Of a stretch of DNA of 64,000 bases, positions 12,709 through 62,222 are shown in pieces. This DNA is from Sulfurimonas sp. HSL-1716 (GTDB taxonomy: Bacteria > Campylobacterota > Campylobacteria > Campylobacterales > Sulfurimonadaceae). The notes below the pieces were generated by a model. The model did not search any database, had not been told where the DNA came from, and saw only the letters and a program-made list of their open reading frames with translations. Positions within the stretch are counted from its first letter, which is position 1. Every line of letters begins with the position of its first letter. The stretch is from positions 310,001 to 374,000 of the forward strand of contig NZ_CP147918.1 of NCBI RefSeq assembly GCF_039645975.1, given 5' to 3'. Position numbers and translations under genes: made by a program.

Positions 12709-12735
12709 GTGCCGATTTCATTGAAGGATGTTGTT

Positions 12736-13130: not shown

Positions 13131-14246
13131 ATGAACAAATTGCAAAAAAATGCGGTAACGGGTGCGGCGTTTGGTCTCTTGATACTCTCTTTGATATTTA
13201 TCGATTCATTATGGGTTCATGTTCTTTTGACGGTCGCGGTACTGGGTGTAATAGTGGTTATGCAAAATTCATCGGCTTCAAGCGCCAGATCGGGCACAAT
13301 GGAAAAACTTGAAGAGATCGACGAACTTTTGGATTTTGAAAGGAATAAGGTAGAGATAGCAAAAGATACGCAAGACGAACTTGAAAAAAGTCTGAACAAG
13401 CTGCTTTTAAAATATGAAAAGATCGTTTTGGACGATACCAAAGTGGCGGGAGAAATGGTGCTGCTTACCGACAAGGTCTCTAAAGGACACTATTCATGCA
13501 GGATCGGTGCGGATACAAAGACTCCGTATGTTCATGTATTGAGAAACAGCATGAACAACATGCTCGATTCCGCGGAAAAAAACTTGGACAATGCGATAAC
13601 AACGCTTAAAAATTTTGCCGGCGGAGATTTTAAAGCGCGCAGCAACGTAAACGTGGAAGCTAAAATGGCGGAGCTTTTGGAAAATATAAACAGTCTGGGA
13701 CAGTCGCTTGAGGATATGCAAAAACAAAATGAGGATTCAAATCAGCAGATCATCGAATCCGCAAATACCTTGAACAGTACCATCGAAAATATCACAAATA
13801 CGACGATCGTAGATTTTAAAGATATGATAAACTCGATCGTCGAGCGCATACACGACGTATCTCAAAAAGAGAATGAGATGGTCGGTCATCTTCAAGCACT
13901 TGTACAAAATGCCAATGATACGAAGGTTATACTACAGACTATCGGCGATATAGCCGAACAGACAAATCTTTTGGCTCTCAATGCCGCTATCGAAGCCGCA
14001 CGTGCAGGCGAACATGGACGCGGTTTTGCCGTTGTCGCCGATGAGGTCAGAAAGCTTGCCGAGCGTACGCAAAAAAGTCTGGCGGAAACCTCTGCCACTA
14101 CGAATGTGCTTATTCAGTCTATCTCCGATAGTTCCGATGCGTTAAACAAAAATGCCGATGAGGTAAATGAGATCTCCGATGACGTGAGTGCGGTCAGCAC
14201 TAAAATGGATGAGATCATAGATATGTTGAAGAGCTTAAGCAAATAG
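13131..14246 (+). CDS. Methyl-accepting chemotaxis protein, CetA-like, without periplasmic sensor
   Basis: Two adjacent N-terminal membrane segments (about residues 9-48) with almost no loop, so there is no periplasmic ligand domain. A HAMP-like/coiled-coil section (about 60-230) follows, then the cytoplasmic signalling tip (about 270-310) with [19 protein letters not shown] and [14 protein letters not shown], which binds CheA/CheW. The distal helix bundle is short (371 residues overall). With the PAS protein upstream it fits a bipartite Aer/CetAB receptor that reads metabolic state from inside the cell. Confidence 0.9.
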
Positions 14247-36383: not shown

Positions 36384-36851
36384 TTATAATTTCTGCAATG
36401 TACGTCTAAAATATCTTATGGGTTCTGTTGAAACACCGGGGTCGCTCGTCACGGTAACATCCATCAAGACGGTGCCGTTTGATTCGGGCGTGACTATTGC
36501 AGGGATGTAGTCTGCACTGCCCCCGCAGCCTAAACCGATATACTTCATGGTAACGTTTATATCGAATATCTTATTTGTAGTGGAGGGGTAAACCGCATTG
36601 ACGGAAGTAAGGCAGCCGCTTGTGGCTCTGTTCCATCCGGAGACCTTCAGGAGCGCAAGTTCGGCTGCACTCTTTGCCAGCAATACGGCCTGCTCTCTAA
36701 GGTACAGATCGCTCGTTTGTTTGGTCGTTTGAGAGGTAAGGCTTAAGGTGAGTGCCATAATCGTGGTGAGGACAACTATGAGGATGATCGCCATAATCAT
36801 AGCAAAACCGCCTCTTTTAGAGGATCTTAAAATACTGTTTTTTCTTTGCAT
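36384..36851 (-). CDS. MshP/PilX-like minor pseudopilin
   Basis: 155 residues. The N-terminus is a short basic leader, then GGFAMIMAIILIVVLTTIMALTL, a hydrophobic helix starting after Gly-Phe like a prepilin but with Met where the +5 Glu is usually found, as in PilX/MshP-type proteins. The C-terminal part has Cys pairs and beta content. I place the start at ATG 36851, overlapping the preceding pseudopilin by 25 bases; an earlier in-frame start is possible. It closes the pseudopilin operon, as mshP does near mshO in MSHA loci. Confidence 0.75.
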   Translation of the reverse strand: MQRKNSILRSSKRGGFAMIMAIILIVVLTTIMALTLSLTSQTTKQTSDLYLREQAVLLAKSAAELALLKVSGWNRATSGCLTSVNAVYPSTTNKIFDINVTMKYIGLGCGGSADYIPAIVTPESNGTVLMDVTVTSDPGVSTEPIRYFRRTLQKL

Positions 36852-37252
36852 ATCGAGTATCCTCCGTCTCTTGAGATATTTGAGTCTTTCACACACAGCT
36901 GAACTTTTATGAGGTCTCCTACCGTACGGAATCTAAAAGTGTCGACATCCTGCATGATCACTGCACTTTTACCGTTGGTATAGTTTTCTCCTTTCCATGG
37001 CTGATAGTCATAATAAAGGGTCAGTGTTCCGTTTCCGCTGTTTTCCATTCCGCCCACAGACTGCAGATGTGCCTGTCTTTCATTCTCTATGGATGTGCGT
37101 ATGGCTGTTATCTGCTTTTTGACCCTCGCTTCGATGGCATCATCTCTGGTGGCAGTGAATTTTGGGATGGCGACAGCTGCCAATATGCCAAGAACTACTA
37201 TGACAAAGGTCATTTCCAGCATCGTAAATGCTTTTTTATTATTTGCTATCAA
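36827..37252 (-). CDS. Type IV prepilin-like protein (141 residues)
   Basis: Class III signal: NNKKAFTMLEMTFVIVVLGILAAVAIPKF, cleaved after Ala before Phe, with Glu at +5, then the long helix RDDAIEARVKKQITAIRTSIENER. The globular tail has two Cys near the C-terminus (LCVKDSN and SICKEK). The likely start is TTG 37252, which overlaps the upstream stop as TTGA and has AAGGTTGAG before it; the only longer in-frame start lies 51 bases inside the preceding gene. It is the most pilin-like member and could be the main or an MshC-like subunit. Confidence 0.85.
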   Translation of the reverse strand: MIANNKKAFTMLEMTFVIVVLGILAAVAIPKFTATRDDAIEARVKKQITAIRTSIENERQAHLQSVGGMENSGNGTLTLYYDYQPWKGENYTNGKSAVIMQDVDTFRFRTVGDLIKVQLCVKDSNISRDGGYSICKEKTVF

Positions 37253-38214
37253 TTTCTCAACCTTCTGCAGATTTCTCCGGCGGCGGTCGCGTTCACGACA
37301 CAATCAAACGAGCCGCTGTCTTGATCATAAGTAAAAGTGACATCCGTATTATGCACCTTTACGACATAGGTGTTTGCTGCGGTTTTCGTCCAATCGCCGT
37401 TTTTCGTAGCTCCCGTCACGTTCGTTATCGCCGTAGACATTAAGGGAACGCTGCCGTTTGTATCAAAGAGCGTTGCGGGATTTGCCGTTCCGTCATCGAG
37501 CCTGTTTATGTATTTTACCGCATTGGAGATAGTGTTACCGGTGTAAACCAGAGCGTACGCGCTCCATGCCATCTGGTAAAACTCATATATATCCTGTCCT
37601 GAAAAGTTACCTCCGGCCGTATTGGATGCCAGCAGATAGCTTGCCGTAGAGGATTGTATAGGATGCATCGTCTGGTTTTGATCCGTTATTCCGCCTCCGC
37701 CCCATAACCATCCATAACCGTTGATATCACTGTTTGCGCCTATAAAAAATATTGCACTGTCATTTATACCGCTTGTTCCGTTTGAGAGAGTGCCGATAAG
37801 AGTGTTTTCCGCGCTCGTGTTTGTTTCGGGCGAGTTCAGTATGGCGGTAGTATGGTTTGCATCAAGGTCTATAAACCCGCTCCACAGCGGAAGAGAAGAG
37901 GCTCGTAGCCCGTCGATATCGTAACCGATCCATTCCAATATCCTCTCTTGGGGTATATCTTGTGCATCGGCAAGCGGTTTGAAGGCATTGTTGTCGTTGC
38001 GTCTTACTATGACTGAGGATTTGATGCGGTACTGAAGACGGTTGGCTATCTGTTCCAATGCAACTTCGGTCTGTGTTTGAAGTCTGTTTTGAACGGTCGA
38101 GAATATGTAGCCGTCATACGCTTTTATAAGGAATTCCACCCCGAACTTTGCTATGATACCTATGACGACAATGACGAACACGAGTTCGATCATAGTAAAC
38201 GCTTTACGTCTCAT
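37249..38214 (-). CDS. MshO-like prepilin (321 residues)
   Basis: The prepilin leader RRKAFTMIELVFVIVVIGIIAKFG has Ala at -1 and Glu at +5. The long C-terminal part (about 280 residues) is Asn/Thr/Gly-rich with LASNTAGGNFSGQDIYEFYQMAWSAYALV, features seen in MshO-type minor pilins, which are larger than ordinary pilins. It ends in LRRLRN-like basic residues with a Cys pair. Start ATG 38214 abuts the upstream gene's stop region. Confidence 0.85.
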   Translation of the reverse strand: MRRKAFTMIELVFVIVVIGIIAKFGVEFLIKAYDGYIFSTVQNRLQTQTEVALEQIANRLQYRIKSSVIVRRNDNNAFKPLADAQDIPQERILEWIGYDIDGLRASSLPLWSGFIDLDANHTTAILNSPETNTSAENTLIGTLSNGTSGINDSAIFFIGANSDINGYGWLWGGGGITDQNQTMHPIQSSTASYLLASNTAGGNFSGQDIYEFYQMAWSAYALVYTGNTISNAVKYINRLDDGTANPATLFDTNGSVPLMSTAITNVTGATKNGDWTKTAANTYVVKVHNTDVTFTYDQDSGSFDCVVNATAAGEICRRLRN

Positions 38215-38891
38215 TAGTATCTCCTCTTAGCAAAATCGATCTCGCCGATATTTGCACTGTAAGCTCTTAAAAGTGTCAATGTTCCGTTTGTATCGCCTAT
38301 ATCTACCGTTATGAGTTTCATATTTGAAGGGGTATTGTTCCCTGTTGTTGGAAATACAAAAGGTGTACCCGTGTCGGGAATATAACTGATGGTGACGTTC
38401 ATTTTGTAATCTTTTTTATATCCTGTCGCGGTAGCGGCGGCGTTCTCAAAGCTGATGTTTGTCGCGCCCCTGTCATCGATGGCATCTATACTGCTGTTAT
38501 CGTCTACGTTTATGGTGGAGACGACTGCATCTGCCGAGTTGAAATTATGGAATCTTCTATGTCCGTCTTCGATGATATGTCCGACTCTGAAGCTTCCGTT
38601 TACGTCGGCATTGCCGTACATATCGTATGCTCGGCCGTAGCTGGCGGTTCCTCCCGGAATATCGACGACCTTTGTGTATGAAGCAAGGTTCTGGCTGTTT
38701 ACGGAATGTTCGTCCCAAGGGTAGCTGAGAACCTGCATCATTTTAGCAGAAGACGCGAATAGTGCTTCTTGTACGACATTGCCCTCTATCGCATTTTGGT
38801 TCACCCGCATCATCACGGGCAGCGAGATCACCGTTATAGCGATAACGACAATGGCAAAAATAAGTTCTATCATCGTAAAAGCGCGGCGCAT
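38214..38891 (-). CDS. MshD-like prepilin (225 residues)
   Basis: The prepilin leader MRRAFTMIELIFAIVVIAITVISLP has Ala at -1 and Glu at +5. The globular part has ASSAKMMQVLSYPWDEHSVN after the first helix, a stretch seen in MshD-type pilins. The ATG at 38891 overlaps the stop of the 1356-residue gene in a TGATG junction, which favours it over the TTG at 38897. It is translationally coupled to both neighbours. Confidence 0.85.
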   Translation of the reverse strand: MRRAFTMIELIFAIVVIAITVISLPVMMRVNQNAIEGNVVQEALFASSAKMMQVLSYPWDEHSVNSQNLASYTKVVDIPGGTASYGRAYDMYGNADVNGSFRVGHIIEDGHRRFHNFNSADAVVSTINVDDNSSIDAIDDRGATNISFENAAATATGYKKDYKMNVTISYIPDTGTPFVFPTTGNNTPSNMKLITVDIGDTNGTLTLLRAYSANIGEIDFAKRRY

Positions 38892-41800
38892 CACCAAAAT
38901 ATCCTTTTACTCGTAGTATCGCTGGCATTTGAATCTGTGGTCGTGTTCGTATTTTTCACACCTGTCCAATTGCCTCCCGGTCTATAAAATTCTACCTCGA
39001 ACTCGTTTGTAGTCGCGGTATTGTCGTACTTGTTATATATCAGCCATCCCGCTGCACTGTTTTGCATCGTGGTTTTGTACGGATACCCGGCGGATTGGTT
39101 ATAGATTATATTTGCATCTTCGGGATTGGTTCCGGCCAAACTGTTTAATGTGACGTTCGGCGATGACTTTCGCTCCGTGACCGAACCGACAGAGCCGTCT
39201 CTTACCGGGAGGTGATTGGTGTTGTTATACCAGTCCAGCTCGTCGATGCTTTCCGTAGTGGCCGTTCCGTTTGGCAGAAGCGCTTTGTTTCCGCTGCTGC
39301 CGCAATAAACTTCATAGTAGATAAAAGCGTCGCCGACATTTGTAGGGAATCTGTATCTCGGTGCATGTGTCCTTCCGTAGTAATGTTTTACGGTTTTGCT
39401 GACATTGAGATCGCCCTGCGTCGTTTTTGTCGTAAGATCCGCAAGGAAACTACAGTCTGTTCCCGGGCTTTGGCAATTTACGATATAGTCGTTAAACGTG
39501 ATAGTCTGAGGATCTATCGGTTTGCTTATGTTCCTGTCGAAGTTCAGGTTCAGTATAGAATTTATGGAACCGAGCATATCTTTTAAAAAGTGCGTGGTGT
39601 TAAGCGCGATAGGACCGGAGGTATTGTTTATATCGGCAAACAATGTCGAGTTCAGGTCACCCGTACTGTTATAGTCATGGTAACGGTAACCGTAACCTGC
39701 TGCAGTGGTGGTATAGTTCGTTTTGCTGATACTGATATCGATCGGCTTGGCAAAACAGTTGTTTACGAAGTTGCTCAAGAGCGCTCCGTCGCGTCCTATC
39801 GGACGAATATTGCCGTTCATATGCACCGACATGTTCTCATCTGCAGGCACGGACATATCCGACATATATATAAACGTATTCGCGTTAAAAGTAGTATCGT
39901 TAGTGAGTCCGACGGAAGCAACGATACTTGATAAGTCGAACTTGTATGGATGAAAAGTTATATCGTAATCGTTGTATTGAAGCGAGGCATCGCTGTTGGT
40001 GTGCGAGCTGCTTATATTACAGCCGTTGAGTGTCGTACTTCCCACTGTCTGCGTAGCCGAGGTGTTTAAAGTACAATCAGGCACGTTGCTTGAGAGAAAA
40101 TAGCTTCCCGTATGGTGTGTCATAAGAGTCGGATCATGATCGACTTTCGTCCAGCTCGTATCTATAGCATGAAGTCTGTAATCTCCGACCTGATCGACCG
40201 AAGAGTTCAGATCGACATAGCCGTTTAAGAATCTCAAAGAGATGGATTTATTGCCGATGTCGTTACATCCCGTGGTCACGACTCCGCCTCTTGGTTCCCA
40301 GATGTAAGAGACATTGTCATCCGAGGTATAACCGAAGGATTTTGTATATCCCGGTGCGGCGGTATTGTCTAAATGGTTAGTGGCCGTTATCTCGAGGTCA
40401 TAGTTGTAGCCCGAAGAGATATCCACTACGGAGTTTACCGGAGTCGTCACACCCGATACACTGTCTGCAATTCTTGTTTTTGTAGTTCCCGATGTCTGGT
40501 TTTGATCGTTTATTTTGATCATCAGCGCTTCTGGACGTATGGCAAAGTTGTCTCTGGAACAGGTATAAGGGACATAGTGACCGTATATACACTCCATACA
40601 GACGTTGAGTTCATTTTGAGTCATCGACGAAGCGGATGATGTACCGGCATTGGCACAGGCTTCGGGTACTTGAGTATACGTTTTGGTATGTGTTGCCGCA
40701 CCGGTATATATGGTGGCGGTGACGGGACTCACACAGGTACTTCCCGCATATCCCGGAAAGTTGACGAGGTGGAATTTGCCGGGAGCCGTTTCTTCGACGA
40801 TAAGCGATCCGTTGTCATCCGAAGGAGGGTAGCTTACCCTAAATGCAACGTTTTCTCTGGCGGTCTGGTAAAACTTGCTTGCCGCCTGCGGATCGGCAAG
40901 CAGGATATTGTCTATGATGTCCTGCCCCGTGAAACTTGCGGTGCTAGAACTTTTGAAGGTGATCCAGATCCTGTCGCTTATCGCACTGGTCGGTTCGTCG
41001 CATGATGTCGTCGTATCATGAAATGCTGATGCGTCTATAAGTTCCACGGCTACCGTGGTATTGACGTCTTTTGGCGTATCGAGGCTACTTGGATCGTATG
41101 CGACGATCTTGTAGTTATCCGCTCTTGAGGCTATTTCCGTCGGCAGGTTGTTATAGTAATTGCCGTTGCTGTAAGGGTAAAATATGTCGTTAACGACATT
41201 GAATTTTCCTTTTACCGGTGTGTAGGTGAAGTTTGAACTCGAACACATCTGAATCTTATGACTGGCACCGATATTGTGCGAGTAGGCTATCGGATTGGTA
41301 GGGTCGACGGCGACATTATAGCTGACATTTACATTAAGAGGCATATTTAAACTCGTCTGCAGCGGATCCACTTGATAGTACAGATAAAAGGATTGATTTG
41401 AAGGCAGAGTGCCTATGGGAACACCGATGATGTTCGCATCATCAACGCTGCCTAGGGATGAATCGGCTATCGGTTGTGCCGTCAGCGAGCCTGTCGGTGT
41501 CAGGCTGGTCGTATTTCTTATATAGGTCGCCTGAGAGGTATTCATATCAAGGATGCTGACGTTCATGTCGCTCACCGTTACCTGCGTATCGACAAGGCTT
41601 CTCAGGTATATCGTTACTTCTATAGGTTCGCCCGTCACGACGCCGGCAGGAAGTTTTGCGGTGGAAAGGTAGGGATCTGTCGTTCCGTTGTTGTCTTCGG
41701 TAAAATAGACACCGTTTTGTCTGTATGCATAATCGTAACAGAACTGAGGTTCAAAAATATCGGTTGAAAACGCTATCATTCCCGGAAAGATCTGATCACC

Positions 41801-42961
41801 CGTTCCTCCGACGTTATATGCCGATAACGACAGGCTTGTCGATGATTGCCCCACATCCATCTGAGAAGATACGTCAAATTCGTCGCTGTCGAGTCCAGGA
41901 TAATAGGTTATCGAGCTGTCGATAGGAACACCGAAGCTTGAAACGGAACCGTTAAAAGCATCGTCTACAGGGTTTGTTGCGTTATACAGATCGGTATAGG
42001 TAGCGGTTTTTCCCTGTTGCATTTGAAAAGTATCGTATTGAAGTTTTTTCTCTCCGCCGGCACCGTAAAAGAGAAGTTTCGCAGAGAGCGATTCTCCCGC
42101 CGGGATGGAGAGCGGAGTCAAAAAACCGCTTAAAGAGAGGTTGACGCTCTTTGTCGTACCGCTTCCAAGCGGAATAAGTGCGTCAAAACCCTGAAAGATA
42201 GTGACGTTTTTGGCTGTCGGCTGTGGTGATATTCCTATGATGGAACTATATTTATAGACGACCACAAGGTTCCAGTTCCCCCAAAATCCTATTCTGACTC
42301 CGTCGTAAGCATGTGTGTCGTCGCCCCAGAAATATGTGGCATAATCCGTGCCTATAGTGGATTTTATGTTTCCGACCGTAAAGTTGTTTACCGCGCGTGC
42401 GCTGCTGTATGAGGCTTTGACGATATCCGTTACGTCCTTATAGCCTTGATAAAAGGATCTATAACCGCCGTCAGAGCCGGTACCGTCGCCCCAAAAATCA
42501 TGGTACCAAACCTTATCCGCGGTCAAAGTGTGCACGGTTCCGTTAAAATCCTCTATCGTTACACTGTCGCGTCCTACGATCCCGGTCGCATAATTTGCCG
42601 CATCCGCACCTGTTATGTTTCCCTGCCAATAAAGCCCCGCATATACTATGTTCGAACCGTCTATCTGGCTTGGAAGCTGCAGAGTTTCGGTCGAAGAGTT
42701 TAAAGGTATTACCGCAGTACTGACGGAATTGACATATCTTGTCGTGGCATCGAAGAGATATCCCGTATAGTTGTTATTACACCCTCCGCCTCCGTTATCC
42801 ACACACTGTACGGAAGAAGCGATCGATTTATAATCACCGTATATATTGCTGGAGGAACCGCCGTAAACTACGGAAAAAGGATTTTCATAGCTTGTCGCGT
42901 GTCCGGCTCCGAATAAAAAAATAGGGAAAAAAACTGTTATTATTATAAAAAAATATCTCAT
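38891..42961 (-). CDS. Large exported MshQ-like surface protein (1356 residues)
   Basis: Signal peptide (about residues 1-22, MRYFFIIITVFFPIFLFGAG). The mature protein is beta-rich and very high in Asn, Ser, Thr, Asp and Gly, with scattered Cys pairs (CVDNGGGGCNN, CMECIYGHYVPYTC). The N-terminal third contains IVYAGLYWQG and FWGNWNLVVVYKY motifs of cell-surface repeat domains. After about residue 830 DNFAIRPEALMIKIND and the C-terminal YRPGG and SKRIFW recall MshQ (DUF6701), the tip-like protein of MSHA pili. No transmembrane anchor, so it probably rides on pseudopilins encoded downstream. AAGGAGG precedes the ATG. The MshQ link is inferred. Confidence 0.75.
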   Translation of the reverse strand: MRYFFIIITVFFPIFLFGAGHATSYENPFSVVYGGSSSNIYGDYKSIASSVQCVDNGGGGCNNNYTGYLFDATTRYVNSVSTAVIPLNSSTETLQLPSQIDGSNIVYAGLYWQGNITGADAANYATGIVGRDSVTIEDFNGTVHTLTADKVWYHDFWGDGTGSDGGYRSFYQGYKDVTDIVKASYSSARAVNNFTVGNIKSTIGTDYATYFWGDDTHAYDGVRIGFWGNWNLVVVYKYSSIIGISPQPTAKNVTIFQGFDALIPLGSGTTKSVNLSLSGFLTPLSIPAGESLSAKLLFYGAGGEKKLQYDTFQMQQGKTATYTDLYNATNPVDDAFNGSVSSFGVPIDSSITYYPGLDSDEFDVSSQMDVGQSSTSLSLSAYNVGGTGDQIFPGMIAFSTDIFEPQFCYDYAYRQNGVYFTEDNNGTTDPYLSTAKLPAGVVTGEPIEVTIYLRSLVDTQVTVSDMNVSILDMNTSQATYIRNTTSLTPTGSLTAQPIADSSLGSVDDANIIGVPIGTLPSNQSFYLYYQVDPLQTSLNMPLNVNVSYNVAVDPTNPIAYSHNIGASHKIQMCSSSNFTYTPVKGKFNVVNDIFYPYSNGNYYNNLPTEIASRADNYKIVAYDPSSLDTPKDVNTTVAVELIDASAFHDTTTSCDEPTSAISDRIWITFKSSSTASFTGQDIIDNILLADPQAASKFYQTARENVAFRVSYPPSDDNGSLIVEETAPGKFHLVNFPGYAGSTCVSPVTATIYTGAATHTKTYTQVPEACANAGTSSASSMTQNELNVCMECIYGHYVPYTCSRDNFAIRPEALMIKINDQNQTSGTTKTRIADSVSGVTTPVNSVVDISSGYNYDLEITATNHLDNTAAPGYTKSFGYTSDDNVSYIWEPRGGVVTTGCNDIGNKSISLRFLNGYVDLNSSVDQVGDYRLHAIDTSWTKVDHDPTLMTHHTGSYFLSSNVPDCTLNTSATQTVGSTTLNGCNISSSHTNSDASLQYNDYDITFHPYKFDLSSIVASVGLTNDTTFNANTFIYMSDMSVPADENMSVHMNGNIRPIGRDGALLSNFVNNCFAKPIDISISKTNYTTTAAGYGYRYHDYNSTGDLNSTLFADINNTSGPIALNTTHFLKDMLGSINSILNLNFDRNISKPIDPQTITFNDYIVNCQSPGTDCSFLADLTTKTTQGDLNVSKTVKHYYGRTHAPRYRFPTNVGDAFIYYEVYCGSSGNKALLPNGTATTESIDELDWYNNTNHLPVRDGSVGSVTERKSSPNVTLNSLAGTNPEDANIIYNQSAGYPYKTTMQNSAAGWLIYNKYDNTATTNEFEVEFYRPGGNWTGVKNTNTTTDSNASDTTSKRIFW

Positions 42962-44170: not shown

Positions 44171-44638
44171 ATGAAGGGATTTTGGCTTCTTGCGGTTTTT
44201 CTCTTTTTCGGATGCAGCGTAAAAGAGTATGAGATAAATCAATCCAAGATCATCGTCATAAAGTCTTCACAGCTTAGATATGCGGATCTTGGATATATAC
44301 GAAGTACCAAGAATGCATTGAAAATAGAGCTTTACGATATGGGTACGCTTGTAAAGAGCATAGAGATAAACAACCTTATATGCGTTGACGACGGATGTAT
44401 GTTAAAAAGTTCGTTTAACCAAAAATATCTAAATGAACATTACCCGACGGATATCTTGCAAAACGTGATCCTCGGAAAACAGATATACGGGGGAGAGAAC
44501 ATCAAAATGACTGATAACGGTTTTGTTCAAAATATAAAAGATGATTACGTGGATATTCGTTACGAAGTAAAAAACGGGGGGATAAGATTTAAGGATAGAA
44601 GAAACGGTATCTTGATGAAGATATCTCCATCAAGATAA
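44171..44638 (+). CDS. Small lipoprotein of unknown function
   Basis: MKGFWLLAVFLFFGCSVKEY has a lipobox with Cys at 15. The mature 140 residues are mostly strand and contain ICVDDGCMLKSSFNQKYLNEHYP, a Cys pair that could form a disulfide. The pattern recurs as putative lipoprotein in this phylum as far as I recall, but I cannot assign a role. It is separated from the aldo/keto reductase by 3 bases and so is probably co-transcribed. A 7-bp inverted repeat (CTTGATG/CATCAAG) lies at 44611-44634 across its end. Confidence 0.75.
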   Translation: MKGFWLLAVFLFFGCSVKEYEINQSKIIVIKSSQLRYADLGYIRSTKNALKIELYDMGTLVKSIEINNLICVDDGCMLKSSFNQKYLNEHYPTDILQNVILGKQIYGGENIKMTDNGFVQNIKDDYVDIRYEVKNGGIRFKDRRNGILMKISPSR

Positions 44639-44645
44639 CAATCTG

Positions 44646-46085
44646 TTACGAAGCGGATTGATTGTTGTATTCAACCAGCATCTTATCAAGCAGCTCGAAG
44701 AGCTTGGTGCTGGCATTTTCCATTACCGTGAACTCCTCTATGAGTTTTGTATTGTTTTTCTCGTTGTAACCGTTTTTGGAGAGTTCGGATGAAGTGATAG
44801 AACAGTTGTGAACCAGAGTATGGTGTTTTTCTATCTCTTTATACGATTGTGTGGAACCGAACCGCTCTTTTGCCTCGTTTATGTACCAGCGTCCCAGTCT
44901 GCACGCGGTGTGCGTGGAGATCCCTTCTGCTCCTTTATGGCCTATAACCCTTCCGAAGGTATCGGATTTAAAGAGGATGTGGTCGATCTTCACAAGCGTG
45001 ACCATGATCTCGCTTTTCAGCTCTTCGGCATCTACTTTCATGCTGTTGGCATTAAGGTTAAAGTTGTCAAGAACCTCTTTGAAGTTCTCTATGATCTGTG
45101 TCGATTCATCTGCAACACTGCTCATGATATCGGCAGAGCTGGAGATGGAGTCCGTCTCCTGCTGGAGTGTCTGGATGGAGATATTTATTTCGCTGGTTGC
45201 TTTTTGCGTACGCTCTGCAAGTTTTCTGACCTCATCGGCCACAACTGCGAATCCGCGCCCGTGCTCACCTGCACGTGCCGCTTCGATAGCAGCGTTGAGA
45301 GACAGCAGGTTCGTCTGCTCGGCTATATCTTTTATGAGGTTTACGACTTCGCCGATCTCGTTCGCTCTGCTTTGCAGAGATTCTACGGCGCCTGAGTTGT
45401 TGTTAATATGTTCGGTCAGGTTGTTGAGCTTGGAGATAACCTCTTGCGCCTGATCTATACTTTGGTTTGACGCAACTGCCGTTTCATCGGCTATATCGAC
45501 GGTCTTGTTCAGTTTCTCGACGCCGTCGGTGAGCTGGTCTTGAATGATCTTAAAGCTGACAGAAAGAGGTTTTCCGGTTTTTCCAAGCTCCGTCGAGAAG
45601 TTTTTCTCTTTTTGTGTTTTATATTCCAGCTCCATTGCATCTATGGCCTTGTTTATCTTGTCTGCCGTCTTTTTAAAAGAGTGGTTCAGGCCGTTTGCGT
45701 TGACCCTTCTGAAATATTTGTTTTTGGAGGCATAGTCTATGGCAGTGTTTACCTCTCTCATAAATACTTCGAACTGATCCATGAAGTTATCGATATCCCA
45801 TGACAGCTGACCGAGAACACCATGTTCTATGATATTTGTCTCGCGATATTCAAAGTTTCCTCCCACGGCGTTAGTGACGACGTTTTGGGACTCTTCGATG
45901 CTTCTTTCGGCTTTTTTAAGGTACTGGTAAATAAACAGCGCCAAAATGATGTTAAGCGCATTGAAAGTCGCCGTCAGAAAGTGAAAATCGTATAATAAAG
46001 ATGTGATCGCCGTTGTACAAAATACCGTGACGAGAATGGCGATATTGGCGTAATGAACTTTAGAAAGAGAGGATAAATTCTTCAT
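44646..46085 (-). CDS. Chemoreceptor with C-terminal zinc-binding (CZB) domain, CetA-like
   Basis: Two membrane segments near the N-terminus (about 13-32 and 35-55) with almost no periplasmic loop. A HAMP-like region follows, then the signalling tip ([20 protein letters not shown] and [14 protein letters not shown], about 255-310). Residues about 365-470 form a CZB domain: [24 protein letters not shown] and HHTLVHN supply one Cys and His residues. CZB domains bind zinc and can respond to oxidants such as hypochlorous acid. A PAS gene overlaps its start by 26 bases, so this is a split receptor like the one at 12736-14246. Confidence 0.92.
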
Positions 46086-46575
46086 AAGAGAGCTCCTTTT
46101 CGTTTAAAATATTTTGAAGCTGTTTCATTGAAGCTTCCATCCCTTGATTCTTTTCCGTCGCTAAAAGCTGCTTGTATAGATTTTTTATGAACTCGAGCTT
46201 GGAAGCATCGGCTTTTCTTCTGACTGAAAAGTAGCCGATGATCTTGTTGTCTTTGTCAAAAGAGGGAGTGACGTTGGCAAAGACCCAGTAATACGAACCG
46301 TCTTTTGTGAGGTTCTTTATATAAGCGTTCATCTCGTTACCGCTTTGGATATTTTCCCAGAGAAGTTTGAATACGATACGGGGCATGTCGGGATGTCTTA
46401 AAATATTATGCGGCTGGCCTAACAGTTTTTCCTCCTCATATCCGCTCATCTGTATAAATAGTTCGTTGCAATAAGTTATTTTTCCTTTTGTATCCGTTTT
46501 GGATACAATAATATTATTTTCAGGAAAAACAATCTCATTGTTATTGGGTGTAGGTTTAGACATTTTATTCTCCAT
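46060..46575 (-). CDS. Aer-type PAS protein (CetB-like), partner of the CZB receptor
   Basis: A PAS domain at about residues 20-120 has [28 protein letters not shown], and [13 protein letters not shown], all matching the FAD-type Aer/CetB signature. A short C-terminal helix (about 140-171, [18 protein letters not shown]) may contact the receptor. Its 3' end overlaps the start of the chemoreceptor by 26 bases, indicating co-translation. It pairs with the CZB receptor as the 12736 gene does with its receptor, so the cell could read two energy or redox cues. Confidence 0.88.
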
Positions 46576-46651: not shown

Positions 46652-47494
46652 ATGAAATACGTAGGCGCGCACACATCGGCAAGCGGAGGGGTTTTCAACG
46701 CCATATCGCATGCACAGAGCATAGGAGCCAAAGCATTCGCGCTTTTTACGAAGAATCAGCGCAGATGGGACGCCAAACCGCTTGATACGCAGACGATAGA
46801 CAAATTTAAAAAGTTGCTGGAGCAAAGCAAAATATTTCCGCGTCATGTGTTACCGCATGACTCATATCTGATCAATCTCGGACACCCCGAAGATGAAAAG
46901 CGCGAAAAGTCGATGGAAGCGTTCTTAGATGAGGTTAAAAGATGTGAAATACTGGGACTTGAAAAGCTTAATTTTCATCCCGGGAGTCATCTAAAACAGA
47001 TTGATGAAGAGATCTGTCTAAACAGGATCGCAGACGCCATGAACATGACACTGAACAAGACATCGGGCGTATCGCTCGTACTTGAAAATACAGCGGGGCA
47101 GGGCAGCAATCTGGGCTGGAAGTTCGAACATCTCGCATATATCATAGATAAAGTAGAAGACAAAGGCAGAGTAGGTGTGTGTCTGGATACCTGTCATATG
47201 TTCACCGCAGGGTACGACATACGCACACGCGAAGCTTATGATATAACGATGGCGCAGTTTGAGAACATTGTCGGGTTCAAATACCTTAAAGGGATGCATC
47301 TAAACGATTCAAAACCCGCTCTGGGTTCGCATGTCGACCGCCATGACAGTATAGGCAAAGGCAAGATAGGACTCGATGCTTTTAAGTTCATCATGAACGA
47401 TGAGAGGATGGATGACATACCTCTTATTTTAGAAACGATCGATGAAAGCATCTGGGCACAGGAGATAAAACTTCTTTACTCTTTGGTAGATTAA
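46652..47494 (+). CDS. nfo: Endonuclease IV (AP endonuclease)
   Basis: Zinc enzyme that cuts DNA at abasic sites. Motifs are [53 protein letters not shown] and [11 protein letters not shown], which supply the three-zinc site. At 280 residues it matches the family. Upstream a TATAAC at 46617-46622 may be its -10. The intergenic region with the divergent PAS gene is short (76 bases). Confidence 0.96.
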
Positions 47495-55447: not shown

Positions 55448-57481
55448 TTGAGTAAAGTCTATTTTTCCACTTGGAATGGTGAATTTATCAACAACATAAA
55501 CAAACCTGAAGATCAGTGGGAAGAATCAGCATATAACCTGCCGGTGCAATACGATGCGCATCGTGAATCCAAAGCGTTTATCGGCTGGGACGGCGTAGCG
55601 GTGTTCAATGAGGACGTCGACGTCATACGCCTGGCGGCGGAATATGCTGCACAGTATCAGGTTTATTCAGAAGCGTGCGGACGCTGCGCACCCGGAAGAT
55701 GGGGCGGAAGAATACTTTATGACATGCTTGATAAAATTGCTCGCGGCGAGGGTGAGGTTTCTGATCTGGAGCATTTAAAAGAGATAAGCAAAAGTATGCA
55801 GATCACTTCAAAATGTGAGATAGGCAAGACCGTACCAAATCCTATTTTGGACATCATGACGCATTTTGAAGACGTGTTTATGGAGTGTATCGATAAAAAG
55901 AAACCTTCGAAGCATTATAAAGAGGATATAAACTATATAGCCAAAATCACTGCGCCGTGTACAGATGCGTGTCCGGCTCATGTCGATATACCGGGCTATA
56001 TTGAAGGCGTAAGAGATCTTCGTTTTGATGATTCACTGATGGCAACGCGCCAGACTATGCCGCTTGCGCATACCTGCGGACGTGTCTGTCCCCACCCGTG
56101 TGAAGATGCATGCCGCCGTACGAATCTGGACGAGCCTGTATCTATCATGGAACTAAAACGCCTCGGTGCCGATTATGAGACCGATCACGGTTTTGGATTC
56201 TTCCATCCCGAAGAACAAAAACCGAAGATAGATAAAAAAGTCGCGGTTATCGGTGCGGGACCGGCGGGACTTACCACTGCGTATTATCTCGCACTCGAAG
56301 GTATCGATGTCGATGTTTACGAAGAGCTGCCTGTTCTTGGCGGAGAGGTCGCCGTGGGTGTTCCCGAATACCGTATGCCTATCGGAAAATACAACAAAGA
56401 TATCGAGTGTATCAAAGATATGGGCGTTAACTTCATAACCAACACGAAAGTAACAGCAGATATGATGCGTCAGTTTGAAAAAGACTATGATGCCGTCATG
56501 GTAGCCACAGGAACGCGTATATCCAAAAAAGTATACTGCGACAACGAAAGAGCTGAAGTCAAAGGATACTGGGGAGCCATCGATTTCCTCGATAAAGTGA
56601 ACCTTTTTGAGAAGTACGGATATACGATCTCAAAAGAGGATCAAGAGGAAAACCTTTTAACCACCGATTATGTCGATTTGACCGGAAAAACGGTCGTGTG
56701 TGTCGGCGGTGGATTTACATCTATGGACGTCGTGCGCTGTTCTATCCGTGCAAATGCGAAAAAAGTGTATATGATCTACCGCAGGGACGAAAAGACCATC
56801 ATCGGTAATACGACGTATGAAGAGTATCATGAAGCCGTCGAAGAGGGCGTAGAGTTTCTGTTCCATTCGGCGGTTGCGGAGATGAAGGATGAAAACGATA
56901 TCTTAAAATCTTTGATCATAGACAAGTTCGAACTGGTTCCCGATCCAAACGGAGGACGTGCGCAGCTTGTAAAGATCGAGGGTGCTTCTTATGAGATCGA
57001 GTGCGATTACCTTATCCCGGCGGTAAGCCAGAGTGCGGATCTTAAACTTCTTCCCGAAGAGTGGGAGATAGAGATGACCTCTTGGGCTACCATCAAAACA
57101 AACGGGAAAGATTATATGACATCCCGTAAAGGTATTTTTGCTTCAGGAGACTGCGAATACGGACCTATGACGATCGTTAACGCCGTCGGTCAGGCAAAAC
57201 GGGCATCTTCGGTTATCGCCAGATATGTTCAAACGGGTGAAGTGAGCCTGACGGATGATGAGATCATGGAAGACCATCTGCGCAAACTCCGCGTCTATGA
57301 CAAAAAAGAGAAGATCACGGGCTGGCTTCCGGGACTTCCTCGCGAAGTCAGTGTGAAGCTCGAAGTCGAAGACCGTAAGTACAACAACAAAGAGGTCAAT
57401 CTCGGTTTCACTCAAGAAGAAGCGTTAAGCGAAGCCGATAGATGTATGCGTTGTTACTATATAGCAATGACAGCAGTTTAA
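55448..57481 (+). CDS. GltD-like flavoprotein fused to a NuoF-type FeS segment (complex I electron input)
   Basis: Stands where nuoF is expected but lacks the NADH/FMN Rossmann part of NuoF. Residues about 70-160 match the NuoF iron-sulfur segment (EACGRCAPGRWGG, then ARGEGEVSDLEHL and SKCEIG). From about 170 it is a GltD-type protein: CTDACPAHVDIPGY and CGRVCPHPCEDACRR FeS ligands, the FAD motif AVIGAGPAGLTTAYYLA, and an NAD(P)-like VVCVGGGFTSMDVV. The segment has Gly83 in the position of the third N3 Cys. Starts at TTG 55448 with AGGAA upstream. Likely delivers electrons from a non-NADH donor or NADPH; the donor is not proven. Confidence 0.9.
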   Translation: MSKVYFSTWNGEFINNINKPEDQWEESAYNLPVQYDAHRESKAFIGWDGVAVFNEDVDVIRLAAEYAAQYQVYSEACGRCAPGRWGGRILYDMLDKIARGEGEVSDLEHLKEISKSMQITSKCEIGKTVPNPILDIMTHFEDVFMECIDKKKPSKHYKEDINYIAKITAPCTDACPAHVDIPGYIEGVRDLRFDDSLMATRQTMPLAHTCGRVCPHPCEDACRRTNLDEPVSIMELKRLGADYETDHGFGFFHPEEQKPKIDKKVAVIGAGPAGLTTAYYLALEGIDVDVYEELPVLGGEVAVGVPEYRMPIGKYNKDIECIKDMGVNFITNTKVTADMMRQFEKDYDAVMVATGTRISKKVYCDNERAEVKGYWGAIDFLDKVNLFEKYGYTISKEDQEENLLTTDYVDLTGKTVVCVGGGFTSMDVVRCSIRANAKKVYMIYRRDEKTIIGNTTYEEYHEAVEEGVEFLFHSAVAEMKDENDILKSLIIDKFELVPDPNGGRAQLVKIEGASYEIECDYLIPAVSQSADLKLLPEEWEIEMTSWATIKTNGKDYMTSRKGIFASGDCEYGPMTIVNAVGQAKRASSVIARYVQTGEVSLTDDEIMEDHLRKLRVYDKKEKITGWLPGLPREVSVKLEVEDRKYNNKEVNLGFTQEEALSEADRCMRCYYIAMTAV

Positions 57482-57490
57482 GGGGATTGG

Positions 57491-59743
57491 ATGGAAAATT
57501 TGATTAACTTTAAAATTGATGGCAGAGACGTAACAGCGAAAAAAGGCGAGACAATCTTAAGTGTGGCGCGCCGTGAGGGAATATATATTCCTACGATGTG
57601 CTACATCTCCAAGACTACGCCTTGTGCGTCTTGCCGTATGTGTGTCGTTGAAGCAAAAGGGGTCGAAGGCTTCGTGCTCTCTTGTAACACTCCTCCGACA
57701 AACGGCATAGAGATAACGACAAATACCGATGCCCTGCATCAAGAACGCACGAACATCATGAAGCTTTATGATGTAAACCATCCTTTGGAGTGCGGAGTCT
57801 GCGATAAGTCCGGCGAATGCGATCTGCAGAACAAGACTTTGGAGTTCGGTGTTGCAAAGCAGAGCTTCTCGGCAAAAGACCAGTATCGCAAACAGGAAGA
57901 CTGGGGGCTGATCAACTATGATCCTTCTCTTTGTATCCTGTGTGAAAAATGTGTGCATGTATGTAACGAAGTGATCGGTGATGACGCTATTGACATTCAA
58001 TTCGGGGGATATAAATCAAAAGTGATCCCAAAAAATGCCGACACGCTTGACTGTACGTTCTGCGGCGAGTGTATCGCCGTATGTCCTGTCGGTGCGCTTG
58101 TGAGCAGCGGGTTTAAGTACAGTGCAAACGCATGGGAGCTTTCGCGCATTCCTGCGACTTGTGCACACTGTTCAGCGGGATGCCCTCTTGAGTATGAGAC
58201 GAGACATATGAGCATATCTTCCAAAGAGAGCTCGATCTACAGAGTCAAGAACAACTTTGAGTTCAGTTCTCTGTGCGGAGCGGGAAGATTCGGTTTTGAT
58301 TTTGACAACAAAGCTTCAAAAGAGGAAGCGGCGTTTCATAAAGCGCTTGAAGCTCTCAAAGATGCAGAAGCTATCAGATTCTCTTCGATGATCACGAACG
58401 AGGAAGCTTTGATCCTGCAGAGACTAAAAGAGAAGCTCGGTATTAAACTTTTTAACGAAGATGCAAGAAAGTTCGCAGAGTTTATGAAAGCGTATGCGGG
58501 TATAAGCGGCAAAAAGCATCACAGCGCGACTCTAGAAGCCGTCAGAAAAGCCGATGCGGTGATCATCATCGGTTCAATGATAGCAACAGACAATCCTGTC
58601 GTAAGATATGCAATGACGACAGCCGCAAAACATAACGGCGCGAAGATAGTATATGCACATCCGGTAGAAGATGCACTTATGCAAAACACGATAACCCAGT
58701 TCCTAAAGTATGAAGTAGGGACAGAAGAGGGCGTTATCGCACTTTTAGCAAAATATCTTCTTCAGGGTGCCGATCTGAGCGACGAAGATAGAAAATACTT
58801 TGACGCTCTTGACGACGGATATCTGAGTGCGGAGAGCAACATCGGCGAAGATGAGCTTGAATTTATGGTGAAATCGCTGGCTCGTACAAAAAACAGAGTA
58901 CTTATCGTCGGAAACGATATCATGGCGCATAAAGAGGCCAAAAACATAGCAAGACTGGCGGCAATGATCGAAAAATACAGCGATTTTTCACTACTTGTAG
59001 TGCCGCGCGACGTCAATACGCTGGGTGTGAGTCTTATATGCGATCTTGATGCGGAGGAGAATGTCAAAGGCGTTGTTGGATATAATTCTGCCGGTGATTT
59101 TGTCATATCAAGCCTGCCGGACGCCGATCTGCCGATCGCTGCGCTTAACCAGCAGGAGGGAACGTTCGTGACTGTAGACAATCGTGTCGTTCCTACGAAT
59201 GCGGCATTGGCGTTTGAGGGTTATGAGCTTAACGATATAGCAAAAGAGTTCGGCATAGGCAAAGCCAATACGATAGAACTTACGCGGGAGCTGCCTGTAA
59301 ATGGCGGCTTTAAAGCTGTTGATTTTGATAGTCTTGAGAACTTCCTGTCATCGTCGGGGGATGATATCAGAGGGTATCTGTTAGACGAGATCGAGGCGGA
59401 TATAAACGGAGAGCTGAACGAGATAGAGGATCTGCCGGAGTTTAACGGGACGATCATCTACAACGTAAATCCTGTACTTCAGTTCAACGCTTATACAAAT
59501 ATTACTTCGCAGCTTGAACGCGATACGACTTTAAGGGGATCGGCACAATTCGCAGCTGCGGCACGCGTAAGTGACGGTGATGAAGTCGAGATCAGTTTCG
59601 GCGGCAAGACCGTTACGCGTACGTTTAAGCAGGAGGAGTCTTTAAAAGGCACGATCGCGCTAAATCCTATGTTTGATTTTGACGAAAGTGCAGGAACTTA
59701 CAGATTTCAAAAATCTAAAATTATGAGAGTGAACAATGAGTAA
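57491..59743 (+). CDS. nuoG: Complex I subunit NuoG, first copy
   Basis: 750 residues. A ferredoxin domain holds CYISKTTPCASCRMCVVE ([2Fe-2S]); the HPLECGVCDKSGEC motif follows. Two 4Fe4S motifs are CILCEKCVHVC and CTFCGECIAVC. Then a molybdopterin-like domain follows with TCAHCSAGC and SLCGAGRFGFD, giving a distal N7-type cluster. The rest is the non-catalytic oxidoreductase-like fold. It overlaps the second NuoG gene by 8 bases. Confidence 0.94.
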   Translation: MENLINFKIDGRDVTAKKGETILSVARREGIYIPTMCYISKTTPCASCRMCVVEAKGVEGFVLSCNTPPTNGIEITTNTDALHQERTNIMKLYDVNHPLECGVCDKSGECDLQNKTLEFGVAKQSFSAKDQYRKQEDWGLINYDPSLCILCEKCVHVCNEVIGDDAIDIQFGGYKSKVIPKNADTLDCTFCGECIAVCPVGALVSSGFKYSANAWELSRIPATCAHCSAGCPLEYETRHMSISSKESSIYRVKNNFEFSSLCGAGRFGFDFDNKASKEEAAFHKALEALKDAEAIRFSSMITNEEALILQRLKEKLGIKLFNEDARKFAEFMKAYAGISGKKHHSATLEAVRKADAVIIIGSMIATDNPVVRYAMTTAAKHNGAKIVYAHPVEDALMQNTITQFLKYEVGTEEGVIALLAKYLLQGADLSDEDRKYFDALDDGYLSAESNIGEDELEFMVKSLARTKNRVLIVGNDIMAHKEAKNIARLAAMIEKYSDFSLLVVPRDVNTLGVSLICDLDAEENVKGVVGYNSAGDFVISSLPDADLPIAALNQQEGTFVTVDNRVVPTNAALAFEGYELNDIAKEFGIGKANTIELTRELPVNGGFKAVDFDSLENFLSSSGDDIRGYLLDEIEADINGELNEIEDLPEFNGTIIYNVNPVLQFNAYTNITSQLERDTTLRGSAQFAAAARVSDGDEVEISFGGKTVTRTFKQEESLKGTIALNPMFDFDESAGTYRFQKSKIMRVNNE

Positions 59744-62222
59744 TATTACGATTAATATAAATGGTCGCGAAATACAGACGGCAGAAGGGGAATTCATACT
59801 AAACGCCGCCCGTGCGAACGACATATTTATTCCGGCTATATGTTACCTTACGCGTTGTAGCCCGACTTTGGCTTGTCGTCTCTGTTTGGTCGAAGCGGAC
59901 GGCAAACAGGTCTATGCCTGTAACGCCAAAGCAAAAGAGGGGATGAACATTACGACGTCGACGGAAAATATCGAAGCCGAAAGACGCGCGATCATGGAAG
60001 TCTATGATGTTAACCATCCTCTGCAATGCGGGGTGTGCGATCAGTCCGGAGAGTGCGAGCTGCAAAACTATACTCTGGAAGTCGGTGTCGATTCTCAAAG
60101 CTATGCCATAAAAGACGTAGAGAGAAAAGATAAAGACTGGGGGCATATACACTACAATCCGGGTCTTTGTATAGTATGTGAAAGATGTGTGACCGTATGT
60201 AAAGATATGATCGGCGATAATGCGCTAAAAACCGTAGCACGCGGTGCCGACGCTATTGATGCCGAGTTTAAAGAGAGCATGCCAAAAGACGCATATGCTA
60301 TGTGGAACAAGCTTAACAAATCTCTTATCGGGCTTACAAGCGGTGAAGAGATGCTTGATTGTACCTCATGCGGCGAGTGTGCGGCGGTCTGTCCCGTCGG
60401 CGCTCTTGTCGATACTCATTTCATATATAGTTCAAACGCATGGGAACTTCGTCAGATCCCTGCGACCTGCGGACATTGTAGTGCGGGCTGTCAGATAAGC
60501 TATGACGTAAAACATACTGATATCGAAAACTCCGAAGAGAAGATATACCGCGTTATGAACGAATGGAACTACGTATCTCTCTGCGGTGCGGGGCGTTACG
60601 GATTTGACTATGAAAACAGAGTCGAAGGAAAAGATGAAGCGGCGTTCACAGCTGCTGTGGAGGCGTTTCAAAAAGCCGATACCATCAGCTTTACCTCGAC
60701 CATAACGAACGAAGAGGCGTTGATACTTCAGTCTTTAAAAGAGAAATTTGGATACAGACTCGTAAACAGTGAAGCAAAACCGTTTCAAACCTTCCTTGGC
60801 AATTACAGCGAAGTAAGCGGAAAATCACTCTACGGAAGTGATCTGAACGAATCTCACGGGGCTGATTTCATAGTTTCGGTAGGAACGGCGTTAAAGAGTG
60901 ACAATCCTAATGCCAGATATGCATTTAACAACTCCATCTCTATGAACAAAGGAGCGGGGCTGTATTTCCATCCGGTAAAAGACCCTGTTATCGAAGGCAT
61001 CGGCAAGAACGTGATGAGCATTAACCATGCTCCGCTTGCCGAAGAGGCCGTATTGTATCTTTTACTTGACCTTTTTGCGGACAAATCGAAACTGCCTGCA
61101 AGCATAGTCGAGTATCTGGCATCGTTTCACTCAGAGAAGACCATCACGGTCGAAGAGACGATAAAAGAGAAAGTTGTCGAGATCGTAAAAGTCAAAAAAG
61201 TGAACGAAGAGACCGGCGAAGAGGAAGAGGTTGAGGAAGAAAAATCCACCATGGTTCCTAAAACGGTCTCAAAAGAGGTTCAAGTCGATGAAAACCGTCT
61301 TTTAGATCTTGTCGGTGCACCCGAGAACTTTACGGAAAGTTTGGAGAAGTTCCTTGCGAAAAAAGAGAAATTCTCTCTTATCGTCGGACCGGACCTTTAT
61401 ACACATCCAAATGCTAAAAATCTGGCAAGACTCGTGGCGTTGATCGAAAAATACAGTGCGTTTAAACTCATGATGATCCCTTCGCTTACAAACACACTCG
61501 GCGTATCGCTTATCTGTGATCTTGACGCAGAGAAAGGCAGTTACACGATAGGATACAACACAAAGGGAGACTTCACTCTTTCTGCTCTTGGAGGCGGCGA
61601 TCTTGATATGCCTGCGATCAATCAGCAGGAGGGAACACTGACAAGTATAGACAAGAAAGTAAACCCTACAAACGCAGCACTCCCTTACAGAGGATATGTA
61701 CTAAACGATATCGCGAACGCTTTGGGACTTGCGGCTAAGTATACTGTAGATTACACACAAAAACTGCCGGTTGACAAAGGTTTTACGGCAGAGCTTTTCG
61801 ATAACCTGCCAAACCGTTATGAAAACGACGGCACGGAAGTAAGAGGCTATGCCTTGACAAATCTCGATGTAAAAACTTCGGGTGATGAAAGCGTTGAAGC
61901 TGTAACTGAAGCAAAAATGGAAGGAACGATCATTTACTTGGCAAATCCTGTCCGTCAGTTTACCGAGTTCACGAACAAAGCTACCAATCTTGATGAAGAG
62001 GCGGGTATCTACATGAGCGAGTCCTATCTTAAAGAAAGTGACTTTAACGAGGGAGATACGGTCATGGTGAAAACACAGTTTGGTGAATTGAGTACCAAGA
62101 TAATAAGTGATAACAAAATCGAGGGAGATATCGCAACTCTTCCTACGTTTGATTCAAATTTAAATTCGCAGGCTCTCTTTAGCGGTTACCGCTTTAGTCA
62201 AGCTACAATACAAGGGGTGTAA
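59736..62222 (+). CDS. nuoG: Complex I subunit NuoG, second copy
   Basis: 828 residues. It repeats the same order of FeS motifs: CYLTRCSPTLACRLCLVE, HPLQCGVCDQSGEC, CIVCERCVTVC, CTSCGECAAVC, TCGHCSAGC and SLCGAGRYGFD. Extra sequence includes a linker (about 170-205) between the two FeS motifs and a highly charged insertion near residue 485 (KVVEIVKVKKVNEETGEEEE). Divergence from the first copy suggests an old duplication with a specialised role. It overlaps the first copy's end by 8 bases. Confidence 0.94.
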   Translation: MSNITININGREIQTAEGEFILNAARANDIFIPAICYLTRCSPTLACRLCLVEADGKQVYACNAKAKEGMNITTSTENIEAERRAIMEVYDVNHPLQCGVCDQSGECELQNYTLEVGVDSQSYAIKDVERKDKDWGHIHYNPGLCIVCERCVTVCKDMIGDNALKTVARGADAIDAEFKESMPKDAYAMWNKLNKSLIGLTSGEEMLDCTSCGECAAVCPVGALVDTHFIYSSNAWELRQIPATCGHCSAGCQISYDVKHTDIENSEEKIYRVMNEWNYVSLCGAGRYGFDYENRVEGKDEAAFTAAVEAFQKADTISFTSTITNEEALILQSLKEKFGYRLVNSEAKPFQTFLGNYSEVSGKSLYGSDLNESHGADFIVSVGTALKSDNPNARYAFNNSISMNKGAGLYFHPVKDPVIEGIGKNVMSINHAPLAEEAVLYLLLDLFADKSKLPASIVEYLASFHSEKTITVEETIKEKVVEIVKVKKVNEETGEEEEVEEEKSTMVPKTVSKEVQVDENRLLDLVGAPENFTESLEKFLAKKEKFSLIVGPDLYTHPNAKNLARLVALIEKYSAFKLMMIPSLTNTLGVSLICDLDAEKGSYTIGYNTKGDFTLSALGGGDLDMPAINQQEGTLTSIDKKVNPTNAALPYRGYVLNDIANALGLAAKYTVDYTQKLPVDKGFTAELFDNLPNRYENDGTEVRGYALTNLDVKTSGDESVEAVTEAKMEGTIIYLANPVRQFTEFTNKATNLDEEAGIYMSESYLKESDFNEGDTVMVKTQFGELSTKIISDNKIEGDIATLPTFDSNLNSQALFSGYRFSQATIQGV

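Follow-up and report, generated by a model that had tools for sequence, protein, structure and literature searches.

The window analysed here, a 64,000 nt stretch of contig NZ_CP147918.1 of Sulfurimonas sp. HSL-1716, carries on its minus strand two ORFs that both start with ATG and lie in different reading frames: a 171 aa PAS protein (P0001, 46060-46575) and a 479 aa chemoreceptor (P0002, 44646-46085). The two ORFs share 26 bases, the overlap that the initial annotation had given. The features of the pair, all on the minus strand, are the following.

46060-46575, minus strand: CetB-like single-domain PAS protein, 171 aa (P0001; Pfam PAS_3, 1.7e-16)
46213-46512, minus strand: PAS core, residues 22-121, placed by alignment with Aer 8dik and the CetB2 residues
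46069-46206, minus strand: conserved C-terminal tail of P0001 (residues 124-169), helical in the model; its end doubles as the start of the receptor gene
46093-46098, minus strand: Shine-Dalgarno-like AAGGAG of the receptor gene, read from the sequence and lying within the PAS coding sequence
46060-46085, minus strand: dual-coding gene overlap of 26 bases, with the receptor ATG at 46085-46083
44646-46085, minus strand: CetA-like chemoreceptor with a C-terminal CZB domain, 479 aa (P0002; Pfam MCPsignal 3.6e-32, CZB 8.4e-10)
45927-46052, minus strand: membrane hairpin, residues ~12-53, comprising two predicted TM helices (residues 13 and 34 mark the hydropathy peaks)
45630-45917, minus strand: two HAMP-like helix-connector-helix units, residues ~57-152 (model connectors 75-89 and 121-134)
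45045-45431, minus strand: MCP signalling domain, Pfam stretch 219-347, with the kinase-control tip placed at H275 by an 11-letter tip motif
44802-44981, minus strand: CZB domain, residues 369-428, with the predicted zinc ligands H369, C395, H422 and H426

The divergent neighbour (46652-47494, plus strand) is unrelated and belongs to the AP-endonuclease/TIM-barrel family (Pfam AP_endonuc_2), and a Pfam search with the neighbouring 155 aa ORF (44171-44638, plus strand) gave no match. The host genome is a single contig of 2.26 Mb that encodes 17 MCP signalling domains, 11 CZB domains and CheW-family domains at 4 places. The initial annotation had called the pair the second of its kind, which is correct for the window: pair 1 (12709-13119 / 13131-14246) consists of an Aer-type PAS gene, whose product is 42% identical to P0001, and a subsequent MCP gene whose product has a short hydrophobic N-terminus. 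It differs from the pair described here in having an 11-base gap instead of an overlap, and its receptor is not among the 11 genome-wide CZB places. The genome as a whole, however, holds two more pairs with CZB, as a search of it with P0001 returned two closer paralogues (59 and 57% identity), each encoded directly upstream of another CZB chemoreceptor. The host thus has three PAS/CZB-receptor pairs (the window pair, L016 and L014), and the receptors of all three possess the two-helix membrane hairpin.

Two other regions of the window were noted by eye. At 36384-42961 (minus strand), a run of ORFs with prepilin-like N-termini is followed by a 1356 aa secreted-looking protein, perhaps forming a minor-pilin/adhesin cluster, and at 55448-62222 (plus strand) there is a complex I cluster that contains a tandem of NuoG-like ORFs (750 and 828 aa) as well as a 677 aa ORF resembling a flavoprotein fusion at the NuoE/F place.

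Predicted flavin and zinc sites of the two proteins

The AlphaFold2 model of P0001 (pLDDT 96.1) found its best PDB fold in the PAS domain of Aer (8dik, E 4.3e-14, TM-score 0.93 by target). Its predicted FAD contacts are H56, N57, R60, F69, W73, N88, V102 and R119, and the Aer-essential residues H61 and D63 are present as well. The FAD contacts are given as H53, R57, M69, W70, N85 and R115 for Aer (PMC9668731) and as His54, Asn55, Arg58, Phe67, Trp71, Asn86, Val100 and Arg117 for CetB2 of Magnetospirillum gryphiswaldense (PMC12442639). According to the alignment, P0001 keeps both sets of contact residues, except for a Leu in the place of Aer Met69. CetB2 has been shown to carry FAD, and its function is lost upon changing F67, W71 or N86 (PMC12442639). 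Among the 55 CZB-paired relatives drawn from the best 80 of 561 loci (see below), H56, R60, H61, F69, W73 and N88 are present in every case, followed by R119 (53/55), D63 (52/55), V102 (47/55) and N57 (30/55). The 16 paired PAS proteins of our Campylobacterota survey have Trp (11) or Tyr (5) at the W73 position and Asp (12) or His (4) at the D63 position. These conserved contacts suggest that the PAS protein binds a flavin. Behind the PAS core, the tail is modelled as helices 124-144, 146-159 and 164-169, with Y134, E141 and Y164 invariant.

Two supposed peculiarities of the PAS protein were considered and rejected. The FAD-stacking tryptophan is not lost in P0001 because Aer W70 is kept as W73, and the replaced Trp corresponds to Aer position 79; a substitution at position 82 does not qualify as a trait of the CZB pairs, as it is seen also in pairs without CZB.

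The model of the receptor (pLDDT 86) is a long helical hairpin in which helices 6-31 and 36-74 make up the membrane region. The periplasmic loop is tiny, and the protein has neither a periplasmic sensor domain nor a PAS domain of its own. Pfam HAMP gave no match in P0002 at E<=1; within the HAMP-like region, G76, R81, D103, E106 and G132 are invariant. For CetB/CetA receptors, nine conserved HAMP residues were reportedly described by Elliott et al. in 2009.

That the receptor ends in a CZB domain was confirmed by Pfam, with a score of 39.3 bits against the curated cut-off of 29.4 (PF13682). The motifs HILFK, CRLGRW and HTLVH, which had been proposed as zinc ligand motifs from the letters, indeed align with the conserved H, C, H and H of the solved CZB domain of E. 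coli DgcZ (3t9o; E 2.8e-4 in the profile match) and with the H/C/H/H ligands reported for TlpD. A Foldseek search with the whole receptor as query returned MCP coiled coils and no match to CZB. Judged by its ligand motifs, the CZB domain of P0002 probably binds zinc. Conservation of the ligands in relatives had been set beforehand as a test of this proposal, and all four are kept in 52 of the 55 CZB pairs from the best 80 of 561 loci and in all 17 Campylobacterota survey pairs that were scored. The broken sets belong to L102 (first His replaced by Leu), L081 (last His replaced by Tyr) and L082 (Cys replaced by Ser and one His by Asn).

For TlpD, a preprint (PMC12871147) gives the zinc ligands as H315, C340, H368 and H372 and the tip apex as H221, together with W345 and a D314-R341 salt bridge, the D-R pair coupling the zinc site. 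The equivalents in P0002 are the apex H275, the pair D368/R396 and W400, and the distance from the apex to the first zinc His amounts to 94 residues in both proteins (H275-H369 and H221-H315). Over 72 CZB-positive pairs, which include those from the best 80 of 561 loci, this spacing is 94 in 66 cases, 93 in 4 and 168 in one, and in one further pair the His is lost. Among the survey receptors with a tip motif that were counted as unpaired, a group containing the in fact paired L122, it is 94 in 30 of 48. Because the spacing is constant, the CZB domain sits at a fixed place behind the tip; counting residues along the hairpin, this place would lie slightly below the HAMP-like units, near the presumed docking place of a CetB-type PAS protein.

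Recurrence of the gene pair and its overlap

Genome contigs were searched with the three host PAS proteins, and the best 80 of 561 passing loci were kept. They come from Campylobacterota, Gamma- and Betaproteobacteria, Ignavibacteria and others, with uncertain phylum labels, since most of them are metagenome bins; the few records not marked as such include Pontibacterium sinense (L091) and Campylobacter concisus (L101). Nine of the 80 loci are cut by a contig end. Of the 71 readable ones, 69 have a chemoreceptor immediately downstream of the PAS gene (64 called automatically, plus L075, L091, L104, L105 and L061, the last with a broken receptor frame), and two (L040 and L046) have a PAS gene without a receptor. 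The pair is not due to chance because it recurs, mostly overlapping, in 69/71 readable relatives among these best 80 loci. This arrangement, in which both domains with intact ligand sets are encoded by recurrently adjacent, mostly overlapping genes and stand in a fixed register, is real, recurrent and well conserved.

According to a profile built here, CZB is present in 59 of the 69 paired receptors from the best 80 of 561 loci (55/64 of the automatically called and 4/5 of the others) and absent from 10; these 10, together with the broken ligand sets in 3 of 55, indicate that zinc is dispensable in some lineages. On a quick PAS tree (82 rows, 171 columns), a kind of tree that cannot tell gain from loss, CZB presence needs 7 changes, at least 3 of which are forced by well supported branches, and the pairs without CZB are scattered among the CZB pairs. 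This pattern fits an old PAS-CZB association with repeated loss, with the direction undecidable from the tree. The membrane hairpin varies as well: the best 80 loci contain soluble bipartite CZB pairs whose receptors, of about 426-446 aa, have lost it (L032, L033, L038, L043, L045, L051, L053, L063, L074, L090 and L098), and on the PAS tree pairs with soluble receptors arise more than once. In two loci of the same set (L052 and L081), two tandem PAS genes precede one CZB receptor. L081 stems from Candidatus Thiovulum stygium and is a candidate for the cetABB' locus named in the Thiovulum genome paper (PMC9938260).

Within the best 80 of 561 loci, the genes overlap in 61 of the 64 called pairs, by 26 to 53 bases in 58 of them and with one frame relation throughout, and some pairs of the Campylobacterota survey merely touch or sit up to 3 bases apart. 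The consensus of the PAS tail, EKGVSYDEFILSL, holds the ribosome-binding-like stretch and the start codon of the receptor in another frame. A Shine-Dalgarno-like motif, defined by a loose pattern, precedes the homologous start in 39 of these 64 relatives, and in about 52 of 64 the tail tyrosine coincides with a start codon in the frame of the receptor, an approximate count because the last tail tyrosine was taken as homologous, which is wrong for a few longer tails (such as L033, L035, L052, L081, L086 and L087). The codon of the tail tyrosine is TAT in 54/64 cases, compared with 320/518 for the other tyrosines of this set. Across the same 64 pairs, the distances of the paired genes correlate with r 0.73 (shuffles <=0.19), a value to which shared descent contributes.

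A second survey, of 41 Campylobacterota genomes, started from the CZB side and so avoided looking through the PAS protein alone. CZB was found in 35 of the 41 genomes, at 87 places in all; the DNA around each of them was read, and one was without a closed ORF. The remaining 86 CZB ORFs were split by sequence motif into 69 chemoreceptors and 17 others. A PAS gene of the P0001 kind lies upstream of 18 of the 69 chemoreceptors and of none of the 17 other CZB proteins, and since 51 of the 69 chemoreceptors have no such gene upstream, CZB works without this PAS. Of the 50 CZB places in 13 of these genomes, 26 have an Aer-type PAS gene no more than 2 kb away, compared with 0.92 expected from the number of PAS genes, an enrichment to be read with care because 18 of the 26 are the PAS/receptor pairs and the eight others are perhaps three independent cases.

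In four of these eight, from four genomes, the gene after a soluble CZB receptor encodes a PAS protein that also has a degenerate MCP-like part. At L185:718-3493 and L186:944-3706, for example, about 10 bases separate the soluble CZB chemoreceptor from a 481 aa protein made up of an Aer-type PAS and a degenerate MCP-like part, and a response-regulator-like gene precedes the receptor. Three more of the eight are genes for single-domain CZB proteins that adjoin a CetB-like PAS gene lacking a receptor: at L187:2093-3615 this PAS gene lies between the genes for two such CZB proteins, of 152 and 148 aa, and at L188:2260-3328 one such CZB gene is found on the divergent side. Both loci possibly represent a split CZB/PAS module. 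At L013, in the host genome, genes for a response regulator and for a PAS-histidine kinase lie downstream of a soluble CZB receptor. CetA-like hairpin CZB receptors without PAS upstream also exist (L111, L117, L126 and L131); by eye, the gene upstream of these receptors resembles an alpha-carbonic anhydrase.

A probable bipartite receptor with a candidate zinc-based input

Among known systems, the window pair comes closest to the CetB/CetA bipartite energy-taxis receptors, of which it is a CZB-bearing variant and not a new type of system. CetAB of C. jejuni and CetBA1-4 of M. gryphiswaldense likewise combine a single-domain FAD-type PAS protein with a short-hairpin receptor that lacks a periplasmic sensor, and an overlap has already been reported for the M. 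gryphiswaldense cetBA genes. Unlike M. gryphiswaldense CetA as described, the window receptor ends in an intact CZB domain; the main text of the respective paper (PMC12442639) contains 0 mentions of CZB. With H. pylori TlpD and Salmonella McpA, it shares an MCP hairpin followed by a C-terminal CZB domain with a 3His-1Cys site. However, TlpD is a soluble single chain and McpA is of similar architecture, whereas the window receptor has a membrane hairpin, whose two predicted TM helices place it outside the soluble TlpD type, as well as HAMP-like units and a separate PAS protein. E. coli Aer resembles P0001 in its PAS fold and flavin contacts but is one chain with an N-terminal PAS, in contrast to the two chains from two ORFs found here, and to our knowledge it has no CZB domain.

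In the literature, the CZB census classifies single chains (PMC8262984), and Tlp6 with its CZB domain and CetA/B/C are described as separate receptors of C. jejuni (PMC9665402). The available sections of a 2026 aerotaxis review cover bipartite receptors without CZB or zinc (PMC13401364), and in V. cholerae zinc starvation has been linked to a flavin-type PAS energy-taxis receptor via gene regulation (PMC8248653). In the literature searched, PMC9665402 was the one paper found to name both CZB and CetB, and it does not treat them as one system. The PAS/CZB-receptor combination, which recurs in many bacteria, appears to be undescribed as one system.

We consider it probable that the window pair is a bipartite CetB/CetA-type energy-taxis receptor with a second, zinc-based input on the receptor subunit. 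The PAS protein would bind FAD, with a redox state that tracks respiratory electron flow as in Aer and CetB2, and would dock on the HAMP-like or membrane-proximal part of the receptor dimer. The CZB domain would bind Zn2+ via three His and one Cys, 94 residues behind the kinase-control tip, and zinc loss, through low labile zinc or cysteine oxidation, would change the same signalling bundle, from which CheA may read two cues as a sum or a gate: the internal redox state of respiration and the zinc/redox state. For cofactors, docking, signal, response direction and behaviour, this is what we infer from the genes. The initial annotation had likewise combined a redox-sensing PAS chain with a zinc/thiol-sensing receptor; the Aer/CetB-type PAS, its kept flavin contacts and the intact CZB domain bear out that architecture, while both sensor roles stay predictions.

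The pair could also be an ordinary CetB/CetA receptor on which CZB serves as a structural or gain-tuning tail, holding its zinc permanently and providing no separate input. Some relatives that have lost CZB or its ligands keep the pair, and a fixed 94-residue register would fit a structural cap too; the strict conservation of the ligands in most pairs and the regulatory nature of the CZB zinc site in TlpD, McpA and DgcZ (PMC8262984, PMC12871147, PMC13370339), which in TlpD is called metastable by the authors (PMC12871147), make this rather doubtful. The initial annotation had suggested sulfur or chlorine oxidants as the stimulus, in which case the CZB cysteine would be a thiol switch and the PAS protein a general redox sensor. 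HOCl oxidises the CZB cysteine (PMC8262984), a reaction described for TlpD and DgcZ (PMC8262984, PMC12871147), and P0002 has C395 as well as the D368-R396 pair. We nevertheless regard this as quite improbable: the support is by analogy, the known cases in which CZB senses HOCl come from host-associated bacteria (PMC8262984), and the locus and its relatives hold no pointer to chlorine or sulfur oxidants. Moreover, hydroperoxides and O2 also elicit a response of McpA, which a 2026 preprint attributes to labile zinc, proposing as the CZB stimulus a loss of labile Zn2+ that O2 and oxidants bring about, and not one specific oxidant (PMC13370339).

It would be most improbable, in our view, that the PAS protein acts in docking or assembly and is needed to keep the receptor stable, with CZB as the only sensor. 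The N-terminal PAS of TlpD, which has no obvious pocket and lies near the CZB loops, is indeed thought to be possibly mechanical (PMC12871147), but the FAD contacts are nearly invariant in the CZB-paired relatives, and CetB2, with the same residue set, carries FAD and requires F67, W71 and N86 (PMC12442639). A wider reading holds that a dual-input receptor is old in this PAS subfamily, well beyond Campylobacterota, with the FAD-PAS reading electron flow, and with it acceptor supply, and CZB reading labile Zn2+ that sulfide would strip (as ZnS) in sulfidic water; a single complex would thereby weigh electron acceptor against electron donor and position cells in redox gradients, at the interface of oxygen and sulfide. 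FAD-PAS and CZB would then be partner modules recombined as overlapping pairs, anchorless soluble pairs and separate neighbour genes. We think this unlikely, and the removal of zinc as sulfide in sulfidic habitats would be our own extension, made for this reading alone.

A CetB/CetA-type receptor with a zinc-based second input would matter beyond this locus, as counts of CZB chemoreceptors have so far considered each chain by itself. Should one in four Campylobacterota CZB receptors (18/69) come with a partner gene for a flavin-type PAS protein, then zinc or HOCl is probably not the whole of their signal. The pair is a compact, genetically separable system for studying how a chemoreceptor adds respiratory and metal/redox input, and the constant spacing of 94 residues provides a structural rule for the position of CZB. 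It also offers an explanation for the many CZB proteins kept by environmental bacteria not exposed to neutrophil bleach, 11 of them in the host genome.
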